Source: Boothiomyces macroporosus (lineage: Eukaryota; Chytridiomycota; Chytridiomycetes; Rhizophydiales; Terramycetaceae). From it: DNA of 17,534 nucleotides. Below are positions 2,208 through 17,534 of the stretch, piece after piece (position 1 is the stretch's first letter; every line of letters starts with the position of its first letter). The stretch covers positions 1 through 17,534 of the forward strand of contig JADGKB010000193.1 in NCBI GenBank assembly GCA_027604185.1, given 5' to 3'. Under the pieces are notes generated by a model. It worked only from the letters and a program-made list of their open reading frames with translations, made no database searches and was not told the DNA's origin. The position numbers and the translations under genes are program-made.

Positions 2208-3843
2208 TTATTTGGAGTTGTTTGCTAAAGCAACACCTTTCGCGGTAGTGTATCCCGATACAAAGTTGGGATCAGTTGAACCTTCGAACCAAACAGTTCC
2301 AGGAGGCATTGCCCTTCTCTTTTCAATTTCTTTTTCAAGAATTTGAATATTTTGTGCATGGCCTGGTGGAACCTGTGCCAAAGCTTCAGTTTGAAGAGCA
2401 ATTTGTTTCTTTTGCGCTTCAGCAATAGTGATGATATTCTTTGCTTCTTGCTGAGCAATCAATGCAGCAGTGTTGGCTTTTGCTTCTGCTTCCTTGATTT
2501 GCTGATAGTACTTTGCGTCGGCTTGTTTCTGTGCAATGAAATAGTCTGTTTCTGCTTGATTTCTTCTGTTTTCATTTTCTACTTGTTGCACAGCCAAAAT
2601 ACCCTTTTGTTTTTCATTGTTGATATGGTTACGCAACTCTATTTGGGTAGCTTCCATTTGGTTTTGCAATACTTGTTCGGCATTCTTTTCCAAATCTTTA
2701 CCCAAAGCTCCTTCTAATCTTCTATCCATGACGTCGAAAGCTAATACTTCAATCCCGTGTATTTGAGACAGTGCACGCAATTCATGAATACATTCTGATT
2801 TAATGAAAAAGTTACCACTCTTGAATGTCTCCAACCATGGAGTGTGGTGATAGTCTGGAACATCACCTCCTATTTTTTGTGCCCTCATAAACTGTTGGTA
2901 AGATAATCTACGTTACAAAGAAAATACCTCGACACCAGGGCGTTTACGATAGTTTGAGATGGATTAATCAACGCTTGCAAAGGTTCATCATAATGCTGAG
3001 TTAAGGTTACTGGATCAAAGATTTTGTATCGTAGATTAAGATCCAGCACCACAGGTACACCTTCCAGTGTATAAGCTGGTTGTGTTCTAAATGCATGCTG
3101 TCGTTCGCCAAGAGACAAGAATGATCTAAAAGTGGTAGATGGGTTGGTTAAAACATGCTGTCCACCATTGAGCGCAAATATTTTTGTTCCTTGCTGAATC
3201 AAAGCAACGTTGTTTGCAGGAATGTTCAAAAATGTAGCAACAGTTACATTTGCATCGCCAACAGTTGATTGGACTTCATGCTTATAGCCCAATACCCTAT
3301 TAGAACCTGGTTCTAGGACTGCAGTATTTTGTGGTAGATTCAGAGTATCTACTACAGCCAGGATTTTAAATCGACCATAGGCACCATAAGACACGAAACC
3401 ACCATTTCTTATAATAAATACTCTGTTTTGCGGGTCTTGCACAACCATGGCTTCACTTTGGCCAACTTGGCAGACTGTCAATCCCAGCTGTTCGATTTGA
3501 GAAGTAATATCATAGGAGCCAAACCAGGAACATGCGAAATTGAAATTCAGGTAACGGCCAGGATTCAATGAAACCTGAGGTTTACCTATGATTAGTTGTA
3601 TGTACCAGCTACTTTCCAGATGGCAATTCGGCCTGCATCTAGTCTTCTCCCAAACAAGCCATTATTGAGTTTTGAAGAAATCAATTTGCCGACTCCTTCT
3701 TGCTTCATTTTCTGATCGAGGACTTTTATTCGGTCGATAACATTGCCATTGCCAATCTCCACGAATAGTGGATTTGCCTTTACGTCTTGAGGCACAGACC
3801 AATCGTCAACATGCGCGACTTCGATTTTATCGCCCTTTTCCAT
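2208..3843 (-). CDS. SPFH/band 7 domain protein (three exons, two 20-nt introns)
   Basis: Exons on the minus strand are 3606-3843, 2912-3585 and 2208-2891, giving 531 residues. The start is ATG 3843; the in-frame codon further up at 3879 is TTG. An N-terminal region (about 1-65) precedes GRIAIWKVAGKPQVSLNPGR and the SPFH domain (about 68-370), with VVQDPQNRVFIIRNGGFVSY and VVLDLNLRYKIFDPVTL. A long Gln/Ala/Glu-rich coiled coil follows (about 370-475). Family members form ring-shaped oligomers on membranes; this one has no clear membrane helix, so attachment would be peripheral. Splicing joins AG|KPQV (phase 1) and FLCN|FMRA (phase 0), removing an in-frame stop at each junction. The family assignment is firm; the cellular role is not known. 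Confidence 0.85.
2892..2911 (-). other. 20-nt intron (SPFH gene, intron 2)
   Basis: On the minus strand it reads GTAGATTATCTTACCAACAG. Removing it in phase 0 joins ...RYFLCN to FMRAQKIGG... and bypasses the TGA that ends the middle frame. A 56-nt alternative using the donor GTAAAC at 2947 also restores frame, but it would delete twelve residues (VNALVSRYFLCN) from a predicted helix. The 20-nt form is preferred because it matches the size of the other introns here. The branch site is weak (CTTAC or TTACC). Confidence 0.65.
3586..3605 (-). other. 20-nt intron (SPFH gene, intron 1)
   Basis: On the minus strand it reads GTACATACAACTAATCATAG, with GTA at the 5' end, a CTAAT branch-like motif and a TAG acceptor. 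Unspliced, the frame stops at the TAA inside the branch motif (GTYN then stop). Splicing in phase 1 gives VAG-KPQVSLNPGRY, which fits the GKP...PGR turn common at the start of band 7 domains. No longer intron with usable sites restores frame as well. Confidence 0.75.
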
Positions 3844-4040
3844 TGTTTTTGAAAAATATTCTAGTGTTTTTATAGACAATTCACAGCCAGAGTCATTGTG
3901 CTGTGCCCATTTTTAAGTTTCCTGACTCATGTATCCCCATCCTCATCCTCATTAAAAATGGCGTAGAATTAAAAAAGTGATGTACCCGAGAAACCCAGCC
4001 CTATCAGATCATTCTCTGTATCAGCATTTTAAAAAGGACA

Positions 4041-4283
4041 CTATTGAGGATTTATTAACATTTCAACCAGCGATTTAATTTCAATTACATGCTGCTGCGC
4101 TTTTTTTAATTTCTGTTTGTTTTCAAGGTATTCCTGCTGCAGCTCTTCCAACTCTTGTTTCCTGTCTACAAAATTCAGTGTCCGTATGTACTGCTCTATT
4201 TCGGTGGTATCTTGTTTGCTAATCAGTAATTTCTTGTACTCTAGCTTTAGCTGTGCAAGTGTGAGATTTGAAAAATCGTTCAT
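4041..4283 (-). CDS. Small coiled-coil protein, 80 aa
   Basis: The frame runs from ATG 4283 (MNDFSNLTLAQ) to TGA 4041-4043; an upstream in-frame GTG at 4298 is unlikely to be the start. Nearly the whole protein is amphipathic and rich in Lys, Glu, Gln and Leu, with heptad-like spacing from about residue 8 to 75, and it has no signal or membrane segment. It looks like a subunit of a larger assembly, since small Mediator, kinetochore or tethering subunits have this appearance, but no diagnostic motif is visible. It lies between the SPFH gene and the GNAT gene on the same strand. Confidence 0.55.
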   Translation of the reverse strand: MNDFSNLTLAQLKLEYKKLLISKQDTTEIEQYIRTLNFVDRKQELEELQQEYLENKQKLKKAQQHVIEIKSLVEMLINPQ

Positions 4284-4362
4284 GAAAAAAAAATGCACAA
4301 GTTTATTAGATGGTCTCGCTTCCTCTGATACGCCAAATTCACTCGCATGATAAACGTGTAAT

Positions 4363-4881
4363 TCATTCTAGAATCTTTCCATAAATTGTTGTATCGTAGT
4401 AGACGTTATTTTTACAGAAATCTTTTACGAGAATTCCTTCCTTCTCAAATCCATTGCGCATCAGTGTTCTACCAGAGAATTCGTTCCCGTTGCAAACGTG
4501 TGCCTCTAATCTCTTGATTTTGATTTCCGCAGTTTCGTTTTGCTTTTCAACAATCTTTATCAGAGTAGCGAGTGCATTTTTCATGATCCCTTGGTTCCAT
4601 AATCCTTTTTTCAACCAATACCCAATAATTGCTTTGTGTGCAAAACAGCCTTTCTGTTGATCATACTCTATCGCTCCAACCACTTTGTCTTCCTGGACTA
4701 TTGCGAATAATCCTACCAGATTTTTATTTTCTGAAATGAATGTTTTTGCATGTTGAAGTGTGTATGGATGAGGTATGGTTGTGTAGCGAGTTACCTCTTC
4801 ATCAGCGAGCTCTTTAGACAATTCTACATCATCACTATCCCTGTATTTTCTTAAAAAGGTGTTTTCGTCTACTTTGAACAT
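4363..4881 (-). CDS. GNAT-family N-acetyltransferase (RimJ/RimL-like)
   Basis: This 172-residue frame from ATG 4881 covers a complete single GNAT domain. The N-terminal part (LRKYRDSDDVELSKELADEE, then TLQHAKTFI) matches the RimJ/RimL-type start. A central strand (FAIVQEDKVVGAIEYD) leads to the acetyl-CoA-binding motif around residues 87-100 (GYWLKKGLWNQGIM), where the pyrophosphate loop appears as GLWNQGIM. The C-terminal segment NEFSGRTLMRNGFEKEGIL is the usual last helix and strand. Such enzymes transfer acetyl from acetyl-CoA to an amine on a protein N-terminus or a small molecule; the substrate cannot be told here. No signal peptide, so cytosolic. It is divergent from the METTL25-like gene. 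Confidence 0.85.
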   Translation of the reverse strand: MFKVDENTFLRKYRDSDDVELSKELADEEVTRYTTIPHPYTLQHAKTFISENKNLVGLFAIVQEDKVVGAIEYDQQKGCFAHKAIIGYWLKKGLWNQGIMKNALATLIKIVEKQNETAEIKIKRLEAHVCNGNEFSGRTLMRNGFEKEGILVKDFCKNNVYYDTTIYGKILE

Positions 4882-5234
4882 GGTGTTTAAATTTTAGCAT
4901 TCTATTTAATACCCCGTGTGGCTTGTGACTCATCCAGCTCTCAACCTGTCATACATAATTTTGACTATCCAAAAAAGAAGTTATATATACTCGCTAATCT
5001 TACCACAAGCGCGTGAAATTGAGATGATCTGTAGTAAATCCAAGCAATATATGAATAGTTCTAACACGCGTTCAAGAATCCTATCGTTTTCAGCATCCAA
5101 TGTTGCCTTGTGTGCATATCATTAACCATTTGTATAGGAATCCAACTAAATGCTTTTTCAGGACCATTGCCATCTTACGATACCCTAGAAAAAAGAGTAT
5201 TTCGGAATCCTTTTTTTCAAATATTTTTTATAAA
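4882..5234. other. Divergent intergenic region, possible transit peptide coding
   Basis: This spacer separates the GNAT gene (minus) from the METTL25-like gene (plus) and presumably holds both promoters. AT-rich runs such as TTATATATAC near 4980 could be TATA-like. From ATG 5100 the methyltransferase frame is open for 45 codons before the preferred ATG 5235. That extension is basic and hydrophobic with few acidic residues, so a longer product with an organelle-targeting leader is possible. I see no other gene here. Confidence 0.4.
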
Positions 5235-6359
5235 ATGAATCTCATTAATTTCTACAACAAACACAAATTCATTAGCCAAGGCCATTATTTTGATATATAC
5301 CAGCAAGCATTCACAGAATATCCCACGGATTGGATAGAGTTTATCACCTCCAGCTCTGACGAAATTGTAGACGACTTTGCAAGTGCACTGTTGAATAATA
5401 CAATCTCAGATTCATTTCCCCAATCTTTAAAAGAATGGATAAAAGATACAAAGTCCATGTACTTGGATAAGCAACCTAAAAACATCAAAGAGCTGGATAT
5501 AAATGTCAAGTTTGTCAAGCACAAAAAAATGCATGAAATAAAGAGATTAGGAGCACTTGTGCTGGATACAATGAAATCATTAAATGTAGATTATATAGTA
5601 GATATAGGAGCAGGCGTAGGTCACTTGACCAATGTGCTATCAGAGCATTACCCAGTGATTGCAATAGAATGCAACAAAGAACTCTCTAATCAAATCAAAA
5701 AGAATGACAATGTTATCATAGTAGACAAATACATTGACAAGACCAACTTGATTTCAATACTGGACGATATCAAGCCAACAGGTACGTTTTTGTTGACTGG
5801 CCTCCACTCTTGTGGAGACTTATCATCAGCAATAACACTGGATGCGTTCAAAAACTGTGACAGGGTTAAAGCAGTAATTACAGTTGGCTGTTGTTTCCAA
5901 CTAATTTCTGAATTCCCGAAATCAAATCATTTCAAGGACAGTATCCAATTGACAAAGGCTCAATTAAACTCTGCCTGTCATGTATATTCTGATTTTAATA
6001 TTCCGAGACTGAATGCATACTGGAAAAGTTTGGGATATAGGGCTAGATTGAATGAAATGTTGAACTTGGATTTGGGAACAAAATTGAGATTCCCTAGCAA
6101 TGTTACATTTGAACAATATGTAGATATTGCAAACAAACAATTAGGTACAAATGCAATGCCAACTGATGGTGAAAAGTACCTGAAAATGATTGCATTTATC
6201 AGTCTGTTGCGGAGTGTGTTTTCCCCAGTGCTAGAGAAAATAATTCAATTAGATAGGCTGTTATATTTGCAACAAGATGGATATGAAGCTAAACTAGTCG
6301 CTTTATTCGATCCCATTCTATCGCCGAGGAATATGGTTCTAATCGCATTAAAGACTTGA
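5235..6359 (+). CDS. METTL25/RRNAD1-family methyltransferase
   Basis: From ATG 5235 the product is 374 residues. The SAM-binding Rossmann motif is DIGAGVGHLT (about 123-132), followed by the acidic strand end AIECN. The family-typical GLHSCGDLS (about 189-197) and VGCCFQ (about 217-222) come next, and the protein ends with LFDPILSPRNMVLIALKT, the conserved C-terminus of METTL25/METTL25B proteins. These motifs identify the Methyltransf_32 group; the substrate in this organism is not evident, and the old rRNA dimethylase name rests on weak similarity. An in-frame ATG at 5100 would add 45 residues. The TGA lies 3 nt from the stop of the convergent gene at 6363, so the 3' UTRs must overlap. Confidence 0.85.
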   Translation: MNLINFYNKHKFISQGHYFDIYQQAFTEYPTDWIEFITSSSDEIVDDFASALLNNTISDSFPQSLKEWIKDTKSMYLDKQPKNIKELDINVKFVKHKKMHEIKRLGALVLDTMKSLNVDYIVDIGAGVGHLTNVLSEHYPVIAIECNKELSNQIKKNDNVIIVDKYIDKTNLISILDDIKPTGTFLLTGLHSCGDLSSAITLDAFKNCDRVKAVITVGCCFQLISEFPKSNHFKDSIQLTKAQLNSACHVYSDFNIPRLNAYWKSLGYRARLNEMLNLDLGTKLRFPSNVTFEQYVDIANKQLGTNAMPTDGEKYLKMIAFISLLRSVFSPVLEKIIQLDRLLYLQQDGYEAKLVALFDPILSPRNMVLIALKT

Positions 6360-6362
6360 CTA

Positions 6363-6764
6363 TTATTCTACATTTTCACTAGGAACCTCTTTAATCTCTT
6401 CAACATACTTTTGCTTTATCCTGCGGATAATTTCATCTGTTCCCTGCATCAATCCATTCGCTTTGCTGATATCTACCTGCATTTTCCAATAATCCAAATC
6501 ACTGCAAAACTTTTTCGCTTGGACTCCTTGATTCTTTGAGATTAACATTAATTTAAGCAGTACGGATTGTCTGTAATCATTGGGTTGAATGTAGAATGCT
6601 ATTGGGTATGCTCGTCTGCATTCGCTTGCTGTTACTGGCCATTTAATGGTCTTGTCCTTGGGAGTGAGAAAGAATGGAGATTTAGTGGTTGCATTTAATG
6701 CGCTGCGGATGTTTCTAGTGATTCCGAATACAAAGGAAATCAAAACCAGATATACAGGCAGCAT
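6363..6764 (-). CDS. Small single-pass membrane protein, 133 aa
   Basis: ATG 6764 is the first Met in this frame after the spliced stop of receptor A (6799). One hydrophobic helix sits at the N-terminus (LPVYLVLISFVFGIT, residues ~2-16), followed by a soluble part with CRRAYPIAFYIQ, LDYWKMQVDISKA and a charged end (RRIKQKYVEEIKE). A signal-anchor topology is likely. Length, the N-terminal anchor and the SVLLK...DYWK stretch weakly recall Sec66/Sec71 of the ER translocon, but the match is not good enough to name it. The frame upstream is open into receptor A, so a continuous reading would wrongly fuse the two. The stop is 3 nt from that of the convergent METTL25-like gene. Confidence 0.6.
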   Translation of the reverse strand: MLPVYLVLISFVFGITRNIRSALNATTKSPFFLTPKDKTIKWPVTASECRRAYPIAFYIQPNDYRQSVLLKLMLISKNQGVQAKKFCSDLDYWKMQVDISKANGLMQGTDEIIRRIKQKYVEEIKEVPSENVE

Positions 6765-6798
6765 GATTGGAAAAAAGCTTTGTGACCGAAAAAACAAT

Positions 6799-7817
6799 TC
6801 AGCCTTTATTGTCAAGGACTTGAGTGCCACTAATATAACTAGGTTGATAATCAGTTCCTTCCACCGTTTGAAGTAAGGAAGAGTTCTATGATTAGCAGCT
6901 TGTACCTCGTATGGTATTCCCAACATCGTGTATACGTTCTGCTTGATTCTGGCATCCAACAGAATCAGTAAATATGGGTTAATAACTGCATTTGTCGTAG
7001 TCAGCAGACTTGATAGTGCATCCACGTTACTATTGACTGGTTGCAAAGTGATTTCCTGATAAACAATTGTGACAGAAATAGGAATCCAACATAAAATGAA
7101 TGCCGAGCATATAATCAATGCTTTCCTTATCAACTGCTTTTCCCTGTCACTAAGTTTCTTTGTTTTGTGTTTCTTTTGTTCCAAGTAAAAAGTCACTATG
7201 CGATAATAGACATATATAATGATATTCATGTATATGCACAGAAAGCATAGGATTGAAATTACTACTGCGAGTACTTCTGGTCTGTGACTTTGGAAATTGA
7301 ATGAACAATAGAGTTTTGAAGTGCTCAGGAGGATAGAGTCTTCAAAGTGGCCAGAGATTGTTGGAATCAGTGACACAAACAGGCTCAAGATCCATGTGAA
7401 TGCTACTGCAGCTGTTGCTTGTTTTTTTGAAATGTTTTTTCTGTAGAATATCGCAAGGTATCTTTCTATCGTGATTAGTACTAGACTAGTCCCGGAACAT
7501 ATTATACTAATCATTGCGTTGAAAAAGAAAACTTTGGCACCTGTTTTTTGGAATGCCCATCCTCCAACCAATAAATTGCCTATTGTAACAATCAAAGTCT
7601 GGGTATTATACATCCAATCTGCGACTGATAATGATAGTAAAAACAATGTGCTAGGACTAATATTCTGTCTCAATGTAGATATAATAACCAACAGTGATCC
7701 AATCTCTCCTATACAAGCATACATAAATAAAACGCAAGTCCAGATTTTCTCTGATGGTGTCAGTGATAAATCATTCCCTGATTGAAACTGAGAATAGATG
7801 CCCAGTGTTTTTTCCAT
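6799..7817 (-). CDS. Class A-like GPCR, array member A (spliced)
   Basis: Exons are 6906-7817 and 6799-6885, giving 332 residues. ATG 7817 (MEKTLGIYSQFQSG) is chosen because the QFQ.G.DLSL N-terminus is shared by paralogues; the in-frame ATG at 7886 would overlap receptor B. Seven helices carry rhodopsin-class marks: LSVADW (Asp67, TM2), IERY (117-120, DRY position), CWIP (243-246, TM6) and NP (280-281, TM7). The NPxxY Tyr is Leu284. Cys171 in loop 2 has no Cys at the top of TM3. No TM7 Lys, so not an opsin. The charged loop KKLSDREKQLIRKA before TM6 is a likely G-protein contact. Ligand unknown; plasma membrane expected. Closest neighbour in sequence is B. Confidence 0.88.
6886..6905 (-). 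other. 20-nt intron (receptor A)
   Basis: On the minus strand it reads GTACAAGCTGCTAATCATAG. The last ten bases (CTAATCATAG) are identical to those of intron 1 of the SPFH gene, an unrelated gene. It lies in phase 0 after IPYE. Splicing gives a 28-residue hydrophilic tail (NSSLLQTVEGTDYQPSYISG and onward) ending at 6799; retention leaves the frame open into the 133-residue gene. Confidence 0.75.
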
Positions 7818-7875
7818 AACTTTTTTGGAATGACATAACTCGACATTTGCTTGATATTTGATATTTTTATTAAGA

Positions 7876-8894
7876 TTAATCAACAATCTTTACAGTATCT
7901 ACCTTGCTTCCATTGAATTCATAGTTTGATTCGTCGCCAGAGGAATGATGTATTGTGGTGGTGGGCTATGTTAAAAACTATTTACATTAAACGGAATATT
8001 CAGCAGAATGAATACATTCTGCTTGATTCTAGCGTCGAGCATTATCAATAAATATGGGTTGATGACTGAATTCGTCACCATTAATAGAAAAGTGACCGCG
8101 TCTGAATTTGGACCAACTGGCTTCATTGTAATTTCAGAATATATGATGGAACATGAAATTGGAATCCAGCAAATAACGAACGTGAGACATATTATGACTG
8201 CTTTTTTGATGAGCTCTCTTTCTCTGTTGCTCAGTTTTCTTGTTTTAGACCCTCTTTGCTCCAGATAAAACGATACAATCTTGTAATACACAAACATCAT
8301 TATTTCAATGTATATTCCGAGAAAGCAGAGGACAGAGAATACTATGGCAAGGACTACTGGACGGTGGCTCGTGTAATTGAATGAGCAAAATAGTTTGGCA
8401 GTGCTTATTGATATTGAATCCTCAAATGATCCTGACATTATCGGTATCAGTGAAACTATTACACTAATTGACCAAGTGATAACTACTAGATTGACGGCTA
8501 TCTTTTTTGTTAGTGCTTTCTTGTGAAATATCGCAAAATATCTCTCCAGCGTCAATAGAACTACACTTGTTCCTGAACATAGGATGCATATTAGTTCAAT
8601 AAAGAATATTACTTTGGTTGCTCCTTTCCCAAATGCCCATTGACCGGCCAGCAGATTTCCAATGGTTATTATTAGCGACTGGGTGGTATATATCCAATCC
8701 GCTATAGACAGTGATAATAATACTAGTGTGCTTGCATTGATTCGCTGATTTAACGTTGATATAATGACCAGCAGCGAACCAATTTCGCCCAAACAAGTGT
8801 ACATGAATATAATACACGCCCATATCTTCATTGTAGGTGACAGTGAGAGATCATATCCAGGCTGAAACTGAGCACCTACACCATTAGTCTCCAT
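7876..8894 (-). CDS. Class A-like GPCR, array member B (spliced)
   Basis: Exons are 7986-8894 and 7876-7965, giving 332 residues. The start is ATG 8894 (METNGVGAQFQPGYDLSL); the upstream in-frame ATG at 9014 overlaps receptor C and would add a non-conserved 40 residues. Marks: LSIADW (Asp66), LERY (116-119), CWIP (242-245), NP (279-280) with Leu283 at the NPxxY Tyr position, and a helix-8-like LDARIKQN. Loop-2 Cys170 (LFCSFN) has no partner at the top of TM3. Splicing adds the polar tail PTTTIHHSSGDESNYEFNGS and onward, whose Ser/Thr residues could serve in regulation by phosphorylation. The stop is 58 nt from the start of A. Very similar to A. Confidence 0.88.
7966..7985 (-). other. 20-nt intron (receptor B)
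   Basis: On the minus strand it reads GTAAATAGTTTTTAACATAG, with a TTAAC branch-like motif and TAG acceptor, in phase 0 after IPFN. Unspliced, the frame runs into a TAA inside the intron four codons later. Splicing opens 29 further codons. Confidence 0.75.
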
Positions 8895-9010
8895 TCTGTA
8901 GATAATGTTAAAGAAAGATGACATAATCGCTCTGAATGAAAGGAGCCGTAACTTGCTCAGAATTTTCTTTAAAATATCAAGTAATGGTAATGTATTTGAT
9001 AAAGCTTGAT

Positions 9011-9982
9011 TCATTTTCCTTCTGCAATTCTGTTGACTTCTCTCCCTGACGATTTCAAGCTGGAAGGTTTCTCTTCGATCGGGATATTTAATAGCGTATA
9101 GACATTGTACTTGATTCTATTATCCAGTGAAATTAGAATAAAAGGGTTGAGAACAGAATTTACGACTGTCATTAATCCACAGAAAGCGTCCACATTCGCG
9201 CTTACTGGAATTTGAGTAATTTCTTGATAAATTATCGAAAGCGCTACTGGCGACCAACATATGATAAACGTTAGGCAGATTATCAGTGCCTTCTTTATCA
9301 GCTCCTTGTCCCTGTCCGACAGAGTTTTCTTTGAGAGTTTATCACTCGTCTTTTCTAAAAATATATGGATTATATGGACATAAAGGATATTGATAGCAAC
9401 AACGTATATTCCTAGCATTACCAGCAAAGATATCACACATGTTAGTACAACTGGTTGGTGGTCAGTAAAATTGAATGAGCAATACATTTTTGAAGCGCTA
9501 ATCGAAATCAACTGTTCGTATTCGCTAGTTATCATTGGAATCAATGGAAGAATTATGCTAATTGCCCATGTAATCATTACCCACACAAAGGCTGTGTATT
9601 TCGATATTGATACTTGGTTTGCTATTGTGATGTATCGCTCAATAGTAATCAACACTAGGCTGGTTGCAGATCCGATTATCGAGGATATTGTTACTACGTA
9701 ATTTATCACAGCACCCAGCTTCTCTATTGCCCATCTCTCGTATATTAAATTCGCTACTACAACAACTATTGTTTCAAAGGTATATAACATGTCTGCAAAT
9801 GAAAGTGATAAATACAGTATTATTGGCGCATTTATATTTTGTTTGCAGTTTGACACAATTACCAAAAGCGATCCAAGGAACCCAACAGAAGAAAACATGA
9901 ATAACACACTCATCCATATTTTGACTATTGTTGATAGCGATAAATCATATCCGGGCTGAAACTGTATATTAATGCTGTCCAT
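9011..9982 (-). CDS. Class A-like GPCR, array member C (no intron)
   Basis: A single exon of 323 residues from ATG 9982 (MDSINIQFQPGYDLSL). Marks: LSFADM (Asp64), IERY (114-117), CWSP (242-245) and NP (279-280, NPFIL so Leu in place of the last Tyr), then LDNRIKYN. Loop-2 Cys168 (MYCSFN) lacks a TM3 partner. After IPIE, where five paralogues have an intron, the frame reads directly into a polar tail (EKPSSLKSSGREVNRIAEGK). The loop before TM6 (KKTLSDRDKELIKKA) is conserved with A and B. The last bases overlap an upstream in-frame ATG of B that is probably not used. Ligand unknown. Confidence 0.88.
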   Translation of the reverse strand: MDSINIQFQPGYDLSLSTIVKIWMSVLFMFSSVGFLGSLLVIVSNCKQNINAPIILYLSLSFADMLYTFETIVVVVANLIYERWAIEKLGAVINYVVTISSIIGSATSLVLITIERYITIANQVSISKYTAFVWVMITWAISIILPLIPMITSEYEQLISISASKMYCSFNFTDHQPVVLTCVISLLVMLGIYVVAINILYVHIIHIFLEKTSDKLSKKTLSDRDKELIKKALIICLTFIICWSPVALSIIYQEITQIPVSANVDAFCGLMTVVNSVLNPFILISLDNRIKYNVYTLLNIPIEEKPSSLKSSGREVNRIAEGK

Positions 9983-10128
9983 TCAAAAATGACAAAAGTT
10001 CATTGTTACGATAAAAAGCACGCGTATTCTAGATTGACGAGAAATTATCATTATATTATATAAGAATCTGATTATTGGTAGGCAAAAGTATATTTGCTGT
10101 AATCAGTAAGATTTCAATGACTCTGAGG

Positions 10129-11140
10129 TCATATCTTGGTACCGATGTTTGTGGACTGAACGATGCCGTTAATTGAATTGCTCTGCTCTTGTTTCGTTTC
10201 CGTGGGTTCCTAAATTAACGAATATTACCAGTTTCAATCCAAAGAACGCATACAGATTTTGCTTAATTCGGGAATCCATAGTAATCAGCAAAAATGGATT
10301 AGCTGCTGAATTTACGCTGCACATTAAACCTGCGAAAACATCGTATATTGGATTGGGCTGCTGTTCCGTGATTTCCTGGTACACGATCGAGATTGCTAAT
10401 GGTGTCCAGCAAATGATAAATGTAGCACAAATGGTGACTGCTTTTTTAATCATCTCCCATTCTTTAAAGCTGAGTTTTTTCGTTGGCTGTCTGCTCTGCA
10501 TTTGGACTATGTAAAAAGAAACTATTCGATAGTATCCCAGAGGCAAGATAAGAAACGTACATCCCAGAGTACATAGAATAATCAATACGGGTATCAACAC
10601 AGATGTCTGATGGTTTGTGAAAGCTAAAGAGCAATAAACGTGCGAAGAGCTCAACGCGATAGATTGCTCCAACTTTCCTGTGAACGCTGGTAATAGAATA
10701 ACAAATATCGGAACTAGCCATACAATTCCTACCGCAAAGATTGCTCCGCCAATAGATAAAATATAATTGTGAAATATGGCCAAGTATCGCTCCAATAATA
10801 TCAAAACCAAGCTCTCTCCAGAGCAATATGCAGAGTATATTGCAATAAAATAATTGATTTTGCATCCCGTAATACCAAAAGGGTAGTAGCCATAGTACAA
10901 ACCTAGAAATGACAACGTGATTACATGGATGGAATAAATGAGATCTGCTATTGTGAGTGAAAGCAGAATGAGAATGCTGGGATTAGATTTGCTATTAAAA
11001 TTTGATAGTACAACCAATATTGATCCAACCACACCCACACAGGTTATCATGAAATCCACAGACATCCATATTTTAGTTACGGGTAGATAAATAAGGTTGT
11101 CTTTGTCGAGGAATATCGCAGTCAAGTTTTCTGTGTTCAT
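10129..11140 (-). CDS. Class A-like GPCR, array member D (spliced)
   Basis: Exons are 10229-11140 and 10129-10209, giving 330 residues. ATG 11140 (MNTENLTAIF) gives the N-terminal length of the paralogues; NLT at residues 5-7 is a possible glycosylation site. Marks: LTIADL (Asp66), LERY (116-119), CWTP (244-247) and NP (281-282) with Leu at the NPxxY Tyr position. Cys93 before TM3 (TGCKINY) and Cys170 in loop 2 can form the classic disulphide, which only D and E have. The N-terminus lacks the QFQ.G motif. The tail after splicing is EPTETKQEQSNSINGIVQST and onward. It pairs with E by the GCKINY segment and the YYRIVSFY helix. Confidence 0.85.
10210..10228 (-). other. 19-nt intron (receptor D)
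   Basis: On the minus strand it reads GTAATATTCGTTAATTTAG, with a TTAAT branch-like motif and a TAG acceptor, in phase 0 after FGLKL. It is one base shorter than the others. Unspliced, the end is VIFVNLGTHGNETRAEQFN; spliced, it becomes a 26-residue acidic and polar tail that brings the length into line with the paralogues. Confidence 0.6.
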
Positions 11141-11362
11141 TAAATACTTTTTGGACAGCAACTGAGATGACAATGAAATATGATGTCAATCCAGGAGTTG
11201 ATTGAAAATAGACATTGGTCAAGCAAGAACATTAAAGAAATGTACTTGTCGGAATTCGGATCAACGAATCAGTCAAAATGTGAATCATACTGAAAGGTAA
11301 GTTTATTCGGTAGATTAGCTTATACATAGTAATTGGGACAAAAGTGAGAGCGTAATTAAGTT

Positions 11363-12381
11363 CTACTCTGCTGTTTGGATAAACTCACTATCCTCCACAC
11401 CTTGAATTGAAAGACTCGGATCCTTCAGTACGCTTGACGATGACTATGGTTAGTAATATTTACATTGTATGGAATGTTTAGTAGTGCATAGACATTTTGC
11501 TTTATCCTCGCATCCATAATTATGAGCAAGTACGGGTTGAGCGCTGAATTCACCATGCTAATTAGACAGGTTATTCCATCTATTCCGATGCTAACCGGTT
11601 TTTGGGTTACTTCTTGGTATATGATTGCTAGAGCTATTGGTGTCCAACATGAGATGTACGTAAAGCATATCACCACTGCTTTTTTTATCAGCTGTTTCTC
11701 CCTATCGCTCAGCCGCCTCTTTGTTTTTGTCTGATTATTCTGCTGGATATAAAAAGACACTATTCGGTAGTATCCGAGTGTAAGAATATTGACGTTAATT
11801 CCTAGTATTGATAACACTGTAATAACTGACCAAAATACAATTGGATGATGGTTTGTAAAAGCGAAATTACAATACAGCTTTGTAGAACCTAAAGCTAACG
11901 ATTCTTCAAACTTTCCTGTAAATGTCGGAAGCAGTGTTACTACAGCACTCGCAATCCATATACCTAATACCCACAAGGAAGCTTTCCGCATCGTTAGTTG
12001 TTGCCTATAGAATATTGCCAAATATCTTTCCAATGTGATCAATACAAGGCTCATCCCAGAGCAAATAGCCGCAAACATTGCGATGATGTAGTTTATTTTA
12101 CACCCCAGCCTTCCAAGAGAATAATATTTGTAGTAAAGATCGATAATGCTAAGTATTAAAATGTGTCCTGAATACAGGAAATCAGCTATCGATAGTGACA
12201 ATAGCAATACGGTGCTGGCATTTATTGTATTACGAAAAGTAGATGTAATTACAATCAATGACCCGATAACTCCTATGCAAGTTGTCATGAACCAAACAAA
12301 GCTCCAGATTAGCGCTTCTGGGGTGAAATATAAATTGTTGAGTGATTGGAACTGAGTAATTATCGTTTCTACTTCCGCCAT
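11363..12381 (-). CDS. Class A-like GPCR, array member E (spliced)
   Basis: Exons are 11464-12381 and 11363-11443, giving 332 residues. ATG 12381 (MAEVETIITQFQS) lines up with the paralogues; an in-frame ATG at 12450 would add 23 residues. Marks: LSIADF (Asp67), LERY (117-120), CWTP (245-248) and NP (282-283, NPYLL, Leu for Tyr), then MDARIKQN. Cys94 before TM3 and Cys171 in loop 2 allow the standard disulphide, as in D. The intracellular loop is strongly basic (NQTKTKRRLSDREKQLIKKA). The spliced tail is SSSSVLKDPSLSIQGVEDSE and onward, with a Ser cluster suitable for phosphorylation. The gap to D is 222 nt. Confidence 0.88.
11444..11463 (-). other. 20-nt intron (receptor E)
   Basis: On the minus strand it reads GTAAATATTACTAACCATAG, with a perfect CTAAC branch motif 5 nt before a TAG acceptor, in phase 0 after IPYN. 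It is the clearest example in the window. Splicing replaces the stray end VNITNHSHRQAY with a 26-residue Ser-rich tail. Confidence 0.8.
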
Positions 12382-12822
12382 TATAATTTTCAAAGAATGA
12401 CATATCCCATTCAATGGAAAAATGAACAAATCGAAATCGAAACAAGGCAATGTCTTGAGTTATGCCGAGTAAAACTTGGCGGATGAATTACCAAGCAAGC
12501 TGCTGTTTCTGTACTAGTTTACCGCGACCTGTATCTCTAAAGAGTGGAATATCACAATCCATGAAACAATACACCAGATTAAAGTCGTTAACACATTTTC
12601 CAAGGTTCTTTAATTACAGAGGGGTGAGTCAAGAGAACGATTTATCAAAGTCGCTTCAACTCTGACCCCAATATTCTACTTGTTATTCCTTCAATAAAAG
12701 ACATTTCTTTCCACCACTTTGCTAATCTAGAGAGCATATGTTTGCAACCCAGTAGTTGATTCGCGCAAAACAAGACAAAGTTTATATATTATATGACAAT
12801 CTGTGGTTTAAATAAATTAACA
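12382..12822. other. Intergenic region with possible coding remnant (minus strand)
   Basis: This is the longest gap in the receptor array. On the minus strand a stretch ending at TAA 12488-12490 reads CVNDFNLVYCFMDCDIPLFR then DTGRGKLVQKQQLAW, which looks protein-like. Upstream, a 30-codon ATG frame (12645-12737) begins MLSRLAKWWKEMSFIEG. Neither reaches a normal length and I found no 20-nt intron joining them. They may be remnants of a decayed gene, exons of a small gene I cannot resolve, or chance. On the plus strand an ATG frame at 12462-12665 covers the same bases and looks less natural. Confidence 0.25.
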
Positions 12823-13838
12823 CTAGACAACACTTTTTTCAATATTCGTCCGTGAAACTTGATCAGAGTTTAAACTAGAATCCATTTCAATATGCGAATT
12901 CTGCTTTAGTTCTTGGTTACCTCAAATGGAATGTTTAGGAAAGCGTATACATTCTGCTTTATACGCGTATCGAGTGATATCAGAAGGAATGGATTCAGTA
13001 TGGAATTAGTGGTCGTTAATACGATTGTAAAACATTCCAAATTTATGTTGACTGGTTGTCTGGTAATCATTTGGTATAGAATTGCTCCAGCAATTGGTAT
13101 CCAGCAAGTTATGAAAGTGAAACAAATGATGAACGCTTTCTTGATCAAGAGCTTTTCCTTGTCCCCAAAAGCACGTCGTTTCCTGCTCTGTTTCTTTTGA
13201 GCTAAATAAAAGGTTACTATTCTGTAATAGCAAAAGTTTATGACGAGGATATTCAATCCCAATACGGTCAGTATTAATATTATGCATCCAATTATTTTTG
13301 GATTTGGGCTACGCCAGTGGTAGGAGCAGTTTAACAGCGAGGGGCTTACTGACAAGGAGTCTTCAAAGTCCCCAGTAAATATCGGCGCTAAGCTGACTAG
13401 CATGCTGAATATGCAGGTGATGGCAATCCAGATTGCTGCTCTAGTTTTTGTAATAAAAGTGTGGTTGAAAATAGCAATGTACCTTTCAATAGTAATCAAC
13501 GACAAGCCCATTCCAGAATTCAATACTGCATTCATGGTAAGTAGGTAGTTGATCTCTGCACCTATTTTGCCAAATGCCCACCTTCCCGCGATTAAATTTC
13601 CGATTACTATAATCAAACATTGGGTGGTATACACGAAATCTGCAAATGATAGTGATAGTAATAAAAGGATGCTGGCATTTACTTTTTGTCTTAGTGTTGC
13701 TATTATCACAATTGAAGAAGCGATTGAGCCGATGCAGGACATCATGAATAACAAACACATCCATATCTTTACATTTGAGGTAGCAACCAAGTCGTATCCA
13801 GATTGAAATTGGATAGTTATGCTATCACCTGTACTCAT
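12823..13838 (-). CDS. Class A-like GPCR, array member F (spliced)
   Basis: Exons are 12921-13838 and 12823-12900, giving 331 residues. ATG 13838 (MSTGDSITIQFQSGYDL) matches the paralogue N-termini. Marks: LSFADF (Asp67), IERY (117-120), CWIP (245-248) and NP (282-283, NPFLL, Leu for Tyr), then LDTRIKQN. Loop-2 Cys171 (LLNCSYHW) has no TM3 partner (GAEINYLL). The loop before TM6 is very basic (KKQSRKRRAFGDKEKLLIKKA) and lacks the usual LSDRE. The spliced tail starts NSHIEMDSSLN and clearly matches the intronless tail of G, so F and G are sister genes. The gap to the stop of G is 139 nt. Confidence 0.88.
12901..12920 (-). other. 20-nt intron (receptor F)
   Basis: On the minus strand it reads GTAACCAAGAACTAAAGCAG, with a CTAAA branch-like motif and CAG acceptor, in phase 0 after IPFE. 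Unspliced, the frame ends three codons on at a TAA within the intron. Spliced, the tail NSHIEMDSSLN aligns with TSHIDMDSDLN in receptor G, where the intron is absent. This comparison fixes both splice sites exactly. Confidence 0.85.
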
Positions 13839-13977
13839 TTGAATCCTGACAATATTAATAAGCAAGATGCAACACTATGCAGAACAATGGCTAGCAAACA
13901 ATCATATCTGTCAAATCAGCCAAAGAGAGGCTACTATGACTCCATAATTATTCGGTTTATTATATTCTAGCTCTTGA

Positions 13978-14988
13978 TTACAAAGGTAATGTAGTATCCA
14001 GTTCACTTTGGACCTTTTCATTGATCGTTCCTCCAGCATTTAAATCCGAGTCCATATCAATATGTGATGTTTCTAGGGGTATTTTTAATAATTTAAAAAC
14101 GTTCTGTTTGATTCTTCCATCCATAGCAATGAGTAGAAACGGATTAACTATAGAGTTTATGCTTGTAAGAAAGATTGTGAATGCGTCCAGATTGACACTG
14201 ATTGAATTACCGCTGATTTCTTGGTAGACTATACTTGTAGCTACTGGCATCCAGCATATTATGAATACAACGCAGATAGTGAGAGCTTTTTTGATTAGCA
14301 ACCGCTCTCTCTCGTTCAACAATGGTTTCTTTCGGCTGTGCTGTTTTTGTTGAATGTAAAACGTCACTATTCGATAATACCCAACTAGTATAACTGTCAA
14401 GTTTATGACAAATATTGAAAGCACAGCGATTACTGACCCCAGCACCATTGGCTCATAGTTCGACCAGTCAAAAGAGCAATACAGCATTGAAGGACTGATT
14501 GTTAGAGCTTCATCCAGTGATCCTGAAAATGTCGGCACCAGTGTCGTGATAATACTAATACACCATGCAATAGAAATCCACAAAATAGCACGTGGTTTCG
14601 TTAGTCTCCAGTTGTAGAATATCGACATGTACCTTTCAATCGTAATCAACGCCAACCCCATTCCAGAAGACAAGACACAAATCATTGTAACGATGTAATT
14701 GATTTCTCCGCCGACACGTCCTACAGCCCATTTGCCAAATGTCAAATTTATAGTAGTGAAAATCAGTGTTTGAAGGGTATATATAAAATCAGCCATTGAT
14801 AGCGAAACAAGTAGCACTGTACTAGCATTAATTTGCTGACGCAGTGTAGCCGTAATTACAATTATTGATGCAAACGCGCCAATACAAGTTAGCATAAACA
14901 AGGCACCCATCCATATTTGAGAATCTTGCGGTAGGGTTAGATTGAATCCTGAAAGCGTTTGGATAGTGAGACTGTCGACTGTATCCAT
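13978..14988 (-). CDS. Class A-like GPCR, array member G (no intron)
   Basis: A single exon of 336 residues from ATG 14988 (MDTVDSLTIQTLSGFNLTLP). Marks: VSLSMADF (Asp67), IERY (117-120), CWMP (245-248) and NP (282-283, NPFLL, Leu for Tyr), then MDGRIKQN. Loop-2 Cys171 (MLYCSFDW) has no TM3 partner (GGEINYIV). The tail follows IPLE without interruption: TSHIDMDSDLNAGGTINEKV and onward, acidic and polar. It is the outermost receptor, 201 nt from the stop of the SH3 membrane protein gene. The absence of the intron, with the flanking codons intact, points to precise loss or to insertion in the other copies. Ligand unknown. Confidence 0.9.
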   Translation of the reverse strand: MDTVDSLTIQTLSGFNLTLPQDSQIWMGALFMLTCIGAFASIIVITATLRQQINASTVLLVSLSMADFIYTLQTLIFTTINLTFGKWAVGRVGGEINYIVTMICVLSSGMGLALITIERYMSIFYNWRLTKPRAILWISIAWCISIITTLVPTFSGSLDEALTISPSMLYCSFDWSNYEPMVLGSVIAVLSIFVINLTVILVGYYRIVTFYIQQKQHSRKKPLLNERERLLIKKALTICVVFIICWMPVATSIVYQEISGNSISVNLDAFTIFLTSINSIVNPFLLIAMDGRIKQNVFKLLKIPLETSHIDMDSDLNAGGTINEKVQSELDTTLPL

Positions 14989-16839: not shown

Positions 16840-17534
16840 TTAGTGTCTATTTATTAGATTTCCATAGTAAACAGAGTAAGACTTCAACTTTCCATCCAAA
16901 AAAGTTTCCTCAAATTCGACATCCTCAAACATCAACTCTTCCTTTTTCAAATTTCTTGGTAAAAAGAAACAAATATCATTCGTAATTCTTTTGGTTCTGT
17001 TGAATATATCTGTTCCTTTTATCGGCATGTCATCAATACTAAATTCACTTTGGTTGTATGATATTCCTCCCCATGGTGGAGATAGGAATACTTTATCTGC
17101 TTTTAAATCTAGTTGCATGTAGTCACCATGAATGAATTCTATATTTTCACAACCGTATACTCTAGCATTATGCTTGGCACACTCTAGTCTAGTTTTGTTG
17201 TTGTCTATAGCAATTACTTTGTCGCATTTTTTAGCGAATTGGATAGTGTTGCCACCTACTCCACAAAAGGCATCGATAATGGTTCCGCCCTTGAGTCTGT
17301 TTGCTAGATGAATAGCTATTTGTTCAGGAGTTACAGAGAACCAGCCTTCCATGTCTATTTTTATATGGTCGAATAGAGAGAATAGAGAGTATCTTTGGTG
17401 GTAATACTTGTGCATATTTTTTGGTAATCTATCCAGACTCCAGTTATCAAGTGTATTTGATTCTTTGTTTTCAGTAGTTTGTAGATATTCATCGTCTCTA
17501 GTAGTCTGTATATAATCATCGTCTCTAGTAGTCT
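16840..17534 (-). CDS. TGS1: Trimethylguanosine synthase, catalytic domain (5' end outside window)
   Basis: The minus-strand frame enters at the right edge and ends with TAG at 16840-16842, giving about 230 residues in the window. Counting from Met 17415, YYHQRYSLFSLFD and MEGWFSVTPEQIAIHLA open the conserved core. Motif I is DAFCGVGGNTIQFA (about 48-61), IEFIHGDY (92-99) follows, and the catalytic motif SPPWGG is at 112-117. The end VYYGNL is typical. TGS1 converts the m7G cap of snRNA and snoRNA to 2,2,7-trimethylguanosine in the nucleus using SAM. Because the frame upstream of 17415 is open and encodes a tandem repeat, the true start lies beyond the window. Family assignment is firm. Confidence 0.92.
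   Translation of the reverse strand, partial: TTRDDDYIQTTRDDEYLQTTENKESNTLDNWSLDRLPKNMHKYYHQRYSLFSLFDHIKIDMEGWFSVTPEQIAIHLANRLKGGTIIDAFCGVGGNTIQFAKKCDKVIAIDNNKTRLECAKHNARVYGCENIEFIHGDYMQLDLKADKVFLSPPWGGISYNQSEFSIDDMPIKGTDIFNRTKRITNDICFFLPRNLKKEELMFEDVEFEETFLDGKLKSYSVYYGNLINRH
17473..17534 (-). repeat. 27-bp coding tandem repeat in TGS1 N-terminal region
   Basis: Two full units (17506-17532 and 17479-17505) and partial units at both ends encode the nine-residue repeat TTRDDDYIQ / TTRDDEYLQ, with the last copy decayed to TTENKES. The array runs off the window. It precedes the catalytic core and is probably a flexible acidic linker; copy number may vary between strains. Confidence 0.75.

Follow-up and report, generated by a model that had tools for sequence, protein, structure and literature searches.

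Short introns in the genes of the window

The window analysed here is a stretch of 17,534 nucleotides (nt) that constitutes contig C193 of a genome of 15,203,306 bp in 216 contigs, and several of its minus-strand genes appear to contain introns of only 19 or 20 nt, lengths that rank with the shortest known. We consider these, with a probability of about 0.95, to be ordinary major (U2-type) spliceosomal introns in a fixed frame of 19-21 nt, which would be the predominant type of intron here and would number of the order of ten thousand genome-wide.

The gene at 2208..3843 (minus strand) has two introns and encodes a protein of 531 amino acids (aa), for which no significant match was found in Pfam; its matches in PDB (erlins among others) are all non-significant. 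The minus strand at 6.8-15.0 kb (6799-14988) carries seven tandem genes for rhodopsin-type receptors. Receptor A (6799..7817), a rhodopsin-type seven-transmembrane protein with a match to PF00001 of 116.9 bits, has 332 aa after splicing, as do receptors B (7876..8894; 342 aa if started at the ATG at 8924) and E (11363..12381), and the spliced products of D (10129..11140) and F (12823..13838) have 330 and 331 aa, respectively. These lengths agree with the 330-332 aa given for the five spliced receptors in a preliminary description of this DNA. Receptors C (9011..9982, 323 aa) and G (13978..14988, 336 aa) are intronless, and the latter served as the reference for the tail of F. In the unspliced frame of receptor A the gene is directly followed by an open reading frame (ORF) of 133 aa (6363-6764, minus strand) without a Pfam match.

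Seven introns had been listed before, and all of them are indeed found on the minus strand as GTA...AG, six being 20 nt long and one 19 nt; for the first intron of the 531-aa gene, however, a better position was obtained. The introns were scored with a position-weight model, which searches lengths of 17-24 nt only and for which 123 sites from elsewhere in the genome, selected by motif, had served as the training set. At the position listed before, 2892-2911, the first intron scores 9.5 bits and lacks TAA, whereas 2908..2927 (20 nt, GTATTTTCTTTGTAACGTAG) joins the same two frames, scores 14.5 bits, has a G before the donor and contains TAAC with the branch A at +15, followed by five bases. Intron 1 therefore most likely is 2908-2927 and not 2892-2911. 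The second intron of this gene (3586..3605, 20 nt, GTACATACAACTAATCATAG) has its branch A at +14 and scores 19.6 bits. Among the receptors, the intron of A (6886..6905, 20 nt, GTACAAGCTGCTAATCATAG) has the branch A at +14 and 16.3 bits, that of B (7966..7985, 20 nt) +15 and 19.2 bits, that of D (10210..10228, 19 nt, GTAATATTCGTTAATTTAG) +14 and 19.4 bits, that of E (11444..11463, 20 nt) +14 and 20.4 bits, and that of F (12901..12920, 20 nt, GTAACCAAGAACTAAAGCAG) +15 and 12.2 bits. The sequence CTAATCATAG is common to two of the genes (at 3586 and 6886), as had been noticed earlier. Above 16 bits the model finds five sites in the window, all of them listed before, whereas ten shuffled versions of the window have 0.2 on average. 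Above 12 bits it finds eight against 2.1; six of the eight were listed before, and the other two are intron 1 in its corrected position and an antisense match.

That the introns restore reading frames holds for both introns of the 531-aa gene, where the unspliced frames stop after 8 codons (intron 1) and 4 codons (intron 2), but not for the receptors, whose unspliced readings end in stops as well: 4, 19, 12 and 4 codons on in B, D, E and F, whereas in A the reading continues for 180 codons, into the next ORF. Support for the receptor introns therefore comes from their motif scores (12.2-20.4 bits), from a position and phase that are identical in five paralogues, and from the tail of F, which when spliced aligns without gaps with that of the intronless G, in line with the earlier alignment (local score 900 spliced versus 857 retained). 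At all seven sites, 3 to 12 GT-AG pairs at distances of 12-120 nt, the listed pair included, join the same frames, and the choice of the intron thus rests on motif and geometry.

Prevalence of 19-21 nt introns in the genome

The pattern GTAAN{6,8}CTAACNNAG, which describes GTAA..CTAAC..AG at 19-21 nt, has 422 matches in the whole genome and its reversed form 58. When the spacing is widened to GTAAN{3,33}CTAACNNAG, 548 matches are found against 656 for the reversed control. Since the 422 lie within the 548, three of the 31 spacings hold 77% of the matches, and the other 28 hold 126 against 598 in the control. Among the 100 of the 548 wide-pattern matches that were listed (C1-C9), 37 are 19 nt long, 29 are 20 nt, five are 21 nt and three are 22 nt; none has 16-18 nt, and 26 are longer.

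Coding sequence gives the same picture. The sample for the coding test consisted of 200 kb from contigs C1 to C20; in 226.7 kb (GC content 38.3%), 30 frame-restoring GT-AG gaps of 19-21 nt were counted, whereas six pairs of decoy ends gave 8, 2, 2, 7, 5 and 4. No excess of GT-AG was seen in these 226.7 kb at 60-120 nt (141 against 140-172 for the six decoys). AT-AC gaps of 19-21 nt numbered four there against the 30 of GT-AG, so that there is no U12-type AT-AC peak, in a test that concerns AT-AC ends only and covers neither GT-AG introns of U12 type nor the U12 small nuclear RNA (snRNA) and branch motif. A second coding test (217.5 kb, 10-60 nt) yielded 53 GT-AG gaps of 19-22 nt against 9, 7, 4, 11 and 12 for five decoys and no clear excess elsewhere (10-18 nt, 20 against 17-22; 23-29 nt, 22 against 11-21; 30-60 nt, 85 against 82-108); at its strictest threshold too few gaps were left for counting. 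A dynamic-programming gene finder jumped between genes and was not used, although its GT-AG run peaked at 19-22 nt.

Without a coding requirement, in 259.9 kb that include some overlapping loci, GTA..YTAAY..AG was found 4, 65, 84, 45, 15 and 8 times at 18, 19, 20, 21, 22 and 23 nt, respectively, and 9-12 times at each length in shuffled sequence. Replacement of GTA by GTC or ATG in this pattern gave no peak at 19-21 nt in the same 259.9 kb. GTA combined with another branch pattern gave a smaller peak (37, 52 and 33 against 10-14), as it would if a loose pattern caught some of the same introns. Lengths of 19-21 nt thus prevail in this genome, and the introns of the window are no local oddity. 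In the 200-kb sample the model has 222 matches above 12 bits. If the background found in the shuffled windows is scaled to this sample, we infer about one intron per kb, which for the whole genome would be of the order of ten thousand.

Branch-point geometry and consensus

When the position of YTAA is left free, introns of 19 nt have five bases after the branch A in 46 cases and four in 12, those of 20 nt have five in 38 and six in 42, and those of 21 nt have six in 32 and five in 10; the other combinations mostly occur 0-9 times. The branch A thus mostly lies at +14 or +15 and sometimes at +16, and is followed by five or six bases. Among 150 coding-supported matches of the model in the 200-kb sample, 128 have the A at +14 or +15 and five or six bases after it. 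Their lengths are 19 nt (47), 20 nt (60), 21 nt (33), 22 nt (5) and 17-18 nt (5), and their phases are distributed 62, 52 and 36. As the model was trained on the same geometry and sample, these figures describe the introns and do not test them, the test being the scores in the window. The consensus of the pooled donors (loci L011-L030) is GTAATT, with T and not G at +5.

Conserved proteins restored by excision

Excision of ten introns of 19-22 nt in the predicted genes for HBS1, SF1 and U2AF65 restores conserved proteins, as judged from alignments of the translated sequences. In HBS1 (contig C51) the introns have 20, 21, 20 and 20 nt, and the joined protein is gapless at all four junctions against the PDB chain Hbs1l. 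The two introns of SF1 (C3) have 22 and 21 nt, and the alignment to the PDB chain Splicing factor 1 crosses both junctions, with a gap six residues past the second. In U2AF65 (C2) the introns have 19, 20, 19 and 19 nt, and apart from these four no match of the model exceeds 6 bits in the 1.4 kb of that strand. Its family score is 230.7 bits when read through, plus 31.1 bits for the last exon, and rises to 326.6 bits after splicing, over the cut-off of 310.3; the printed part of its PDB alignment covers junctions 2 and 3 and has no gap there.

In the Lys2-type aminoadipate reductase the profile is matched in blocks 1-105, 104-325 and 325-1367, which are separated by 11 and 17 nt, as short introns would be expected to give. 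Ten spliced pieces of the sample were compared with Pfam. A domain runs across the junction in four of them (DEAD, P450, DOMON and amidase, the last with about 47 extra residues), one has only a domain edge at the junction, and five have no domain across it.

Splicing machinery

Two loci for U2 snRNA (142.2 and 135.4 bits) and one for U6 (62.2 bits) score over their cut-offs and contain GUAGUA and ACAGAGA, respectively. A U1 candidate at C34:106388 begins with AUACUUACCUG, the canonical 5' end. The search covered U1, U2 and U6. Given the canonical motifs of these three snRNAs, the introns are assigned to the major spliceosomal type; the YTAAY branch motif, at its fixed distance, is complementary to the GUAGUA of U2. 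SF1 and U2AF65 are encoded in the genome. A search for RED_N gave no match, which, according to the warning of the search tool, does not show absence. A modified spliceosome, as had been proposed in view of the little room between donor, branch and acceptor, is conceivable, although the parts seen give no sign of a changed core, given the canonical motifs of the U1 candidate, U2 and U6 and the presence of genes for SF1 and U2AF65.

Lineage of the genome

The elongation factor EF1A of this genome contains the insertion that is a feature of opisthokonts, GEFEAGISKDGQTREH. Its best PDB chain is 1f60 (908 bits), which we take to be the yeast protein, followed by 4c0s (861 bits), presumably the mammalian one. 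HBS1, by contrast, scores best with Hbs1l (443 bits), presumably a mammalian chain, above the yeast chains. A Lys2-type alpha-aminoadipate reductase, a hallmark of the fungal lineage, is present with 1327.6 bits (cut-off 1030.1), and the dynein heavy chain has 11 matches, nine of them above 80 bits. Together, the EF1A insertion, the Lys2-type reductase and the dyneins suggest an organism of the fungal lineage that bears a flagellum. The earlier impression of an opisthokont-like genome thus agrees with the EF1A insertion and, together with the reductase, takes on a fungal leaning. Rhodopsin-type receptors are unusual in fungi, and the receptor family, with 33 exon-level matches in the genome (E 0.001 or better), may be a further clue to the lineage.

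An orthonectid animal, Intoshia variabili, whose genome has 15.3 Mb, was considered and rejected, since EF1A is nearer to the yeast than to the mammalian chains (in our own assignment of the organisms), the Lys2-type reductase is present and the introns of the orthonectid I. linei are longer. Their median is 57 bp (PMC6543705; here and below, statements with such a citation refer to excerpts of the article). In size and GC content the genome is similar to that of the aphelid Amoeboaphelidium occidentale (13.6 Mb, 39.9% GC; PMC10608142). A mikrocytid was rejected as well, as the introns have 16-17 nt there and EF1A has the opisthokont insertion here.

Comparison with known ultra-short introns

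The nucleomorph of chlorarachniophytes, the relict nucleus of a green-alga endosymbiont, has introns of 18-21 nt, in the same length range as here, whereas the present genome looks like an ordinary opisthokont nuclear genome. An 18-nt intron of B. natans and a 15-nt intron of Stentor coeruleus are cited in PMC12316389. Stentor coeruleus resembles our case in its ultra-short introns and in the homologues of U2AF2 and U2AF1 listed for it (PMC9505925), and differs in that its introns are shorter and it is a ciliate. The mikrocytids Mikrocytos mackini and Paramikrocytos canceri (Rhizaria), which the preliminary description did not name, have introns of 16-17 nt, 224 of them in M. mackini, and a reduced spliceosome, with 17-19 proteins and U2, U4 and U6 identified (PMC10245619). 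They are alike in the ultra-short, near-uniform length and the conserved sequence of the introns, whereas here the introns have 19-21 nt, would number of the order of ten thousand, are accompanied by a U1 candidate and U2AF65 and belong to the fungal lineage.

Among the opisthokonts, the introns of dicyemid mesozoans have a median of 27 bp, and about two thirds of them are below 30 bp (PMC6543705). The dicyemids are opisthokonts with shrunken introns, as here, but they are animals and their introns are longer and more spread. The nucleariid Parvularia atlantis, with a genome of 19.24 Mb and a mean intron length of 60.67 bp (PMC9492541), is compact, intron-rich and on the fungal side like the present genome, with introns about three times longer. 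Among the open-access articles listed in the searches, with most subscription papers outside them, no genome of the fungal lineage with introns of 19-21 nt was found, although a report on Amoeboaphelidium could exist; nor did these articles yield intron lengths for the aphelids, the rozellids or the sanchytrids. Six articles on genomes or transcriptomes of these groups (PMC6299283, PMC8371127, PMC10608142, PMC10716661, PMC5701793 and PMC11767097) do not use the word "introns". Ultra-short introns as such are a known kind; what is added here is a genome of the fungal lineage in which lengths of 19-21 nt prevail, the geometry of the branch can be read and the snRNA motifs are canonical.

Proposed mechanism

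The lengths of most of the introns could be explained by two short rulers, one of which would place the branch A at base 14 or 15 and the other would leave five or six bases after it; combined almost freely, they would yield 19, 20 or 21 nt and, more rarely, 22 nt. U1 would pair with GUAA, YUAAY would be bound by SF1 and then by U2, and the AG at 5-6 bases past the branch would serve as acceptor, so close that a polypyrimidine tract would not fit in between. In most of the introns found, the distance from the 5' site to the branch is 13-14 nt. With one human test pre-mRNA, shortening this distance to 46 nt abolished splicing, and for the human B complex a minimum of 52 nt has been estimated, provided that its structure is not altered (PMC6692369). 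The spacing of 13-14 nt, with snRNA motifs and early factors that look ordinary, thus poses a steric puzzle.

With the branch A at +14, the stretch paired with U2 would begin at about +9, only some two bases from the 5' site paired with U6, so that U1 and U2 together, or a standard B complex, would hardly fit side by side. By analogy with the human spliceosome we tentatively suggest that the splice sites may be handed over in sequence. The assembly might also be altered in order or shape, with U6 taking over the 5' site no later than the docking of U2 and without U1 and U2, or the standard B complex, bound at the same time, although this is a more doubtful proposition. If it were true, the sharp wall below +14 would mark the physical minimum of the machine, attained although the snRNA motifs are canonical and both SF1 and U2AF65 are still encoded. 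A fungal relative, if culturable, would be handier than nucleomorphs or oyster parasites for studying the fit of the spliceosome and its lower limit. In genomes of this kind, many genes would be broken up by gene finders that accept introns only from 30-40 nt upwards.

Alternative explanations

Several observations count against U2-type introns in a fixed short frame, or against parts of that explanation. Pairs of GTA..CTAAY..AG are also somewhat in excess over shuffled sequence at long distances (51-60 nt, 50 against 33; 61-80 nt, 94 against 67; 81-120 nt, 193 against 128). Such an excess can arise when a donor is combined with the 3' end of the following intron, but it is possible that some introns are longer than 60 nt. 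The U1 candidate scores 68.8 bits, just below the Rfam cut-off of 69.5, and the donors prefer T at +5, although this U1 would pair best with GTAAGT. The second intron of HBS1, with a score of 4.8 bits, is devoid of YTAAY, and in SF1 the A of both introns lies at +16. The idea of sequential hand-over, finally, was derived from work on the human spliceosome.

The very uniform length would also suit a removal of these stretches by other means, such as programmed DNA elimination, a tRNA-type splicing enzyme or ribosomal bypass. Such means are highly improbable, as the GT-AG ends and a YTAAY motif matching the GUAGUA of U2, together with GTAA donors that match the U1 candidate, point to the spliceosome, and decoy end pairs show no comparable peak. 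Frameshift errors of the assembly, which might mimic introns, have a negligible likelihood. Nothing was found in their favour, 422 motif-anchored matches fall at three spacings against 58, and assembly errors would not add stretches of 19-21 nt that carry splice motifs. A different proposal concerns the receptors, the tail introns of which might be retained wholly or in part, giving alternative C-terminal tails or, in A, readthrough into the next ORF, so that obligatory splicing would be confined to the 531-aa gene with its two introns. Although a stop ends all five readings either way (in A after the 180 open codons), and the coding score over the first 25 codons favours the unspliced tail in D and E, we regard retention as unlikely. 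The same score favours the spliced tail in A, B and F, and the five paralogues have introns that have diverged and yet are well formed, in the same position and phase, with spliced tails of 25-29 codons. In addition, F fits the intronless G better when spliced, and the ORF that follows A possesses a separate ATG, at 6764, past the spliced stop of A.

Other features of the window and the sample

No match at the gathering threshold was obtained in an Rfam scan of the window, no tRNA was found in a tRNA scan of it, and the methyltransferase at 5235-6356 had no match in a PDB search. A perfect palindrome of 42 nt is located at 1109-1150, and inverted repeats of 32 nt at 1209-1532, 97% complementary and spaced by 260 nt, recall a small non-autonomous transposon. 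At the other end of the window, 16840-17534 (minus strand) encodes a TGS1-like cap guanine-N2 methyltransferase (PF09445, 111.8 bits), which is truncated by the end of the contig. Elsewhere in the sample, L013:602-2326 (minus strand) combines DOMON and copper type II monooxygenase domains, in an order that is presumably the same as in dopamine beta-hydroxylase.

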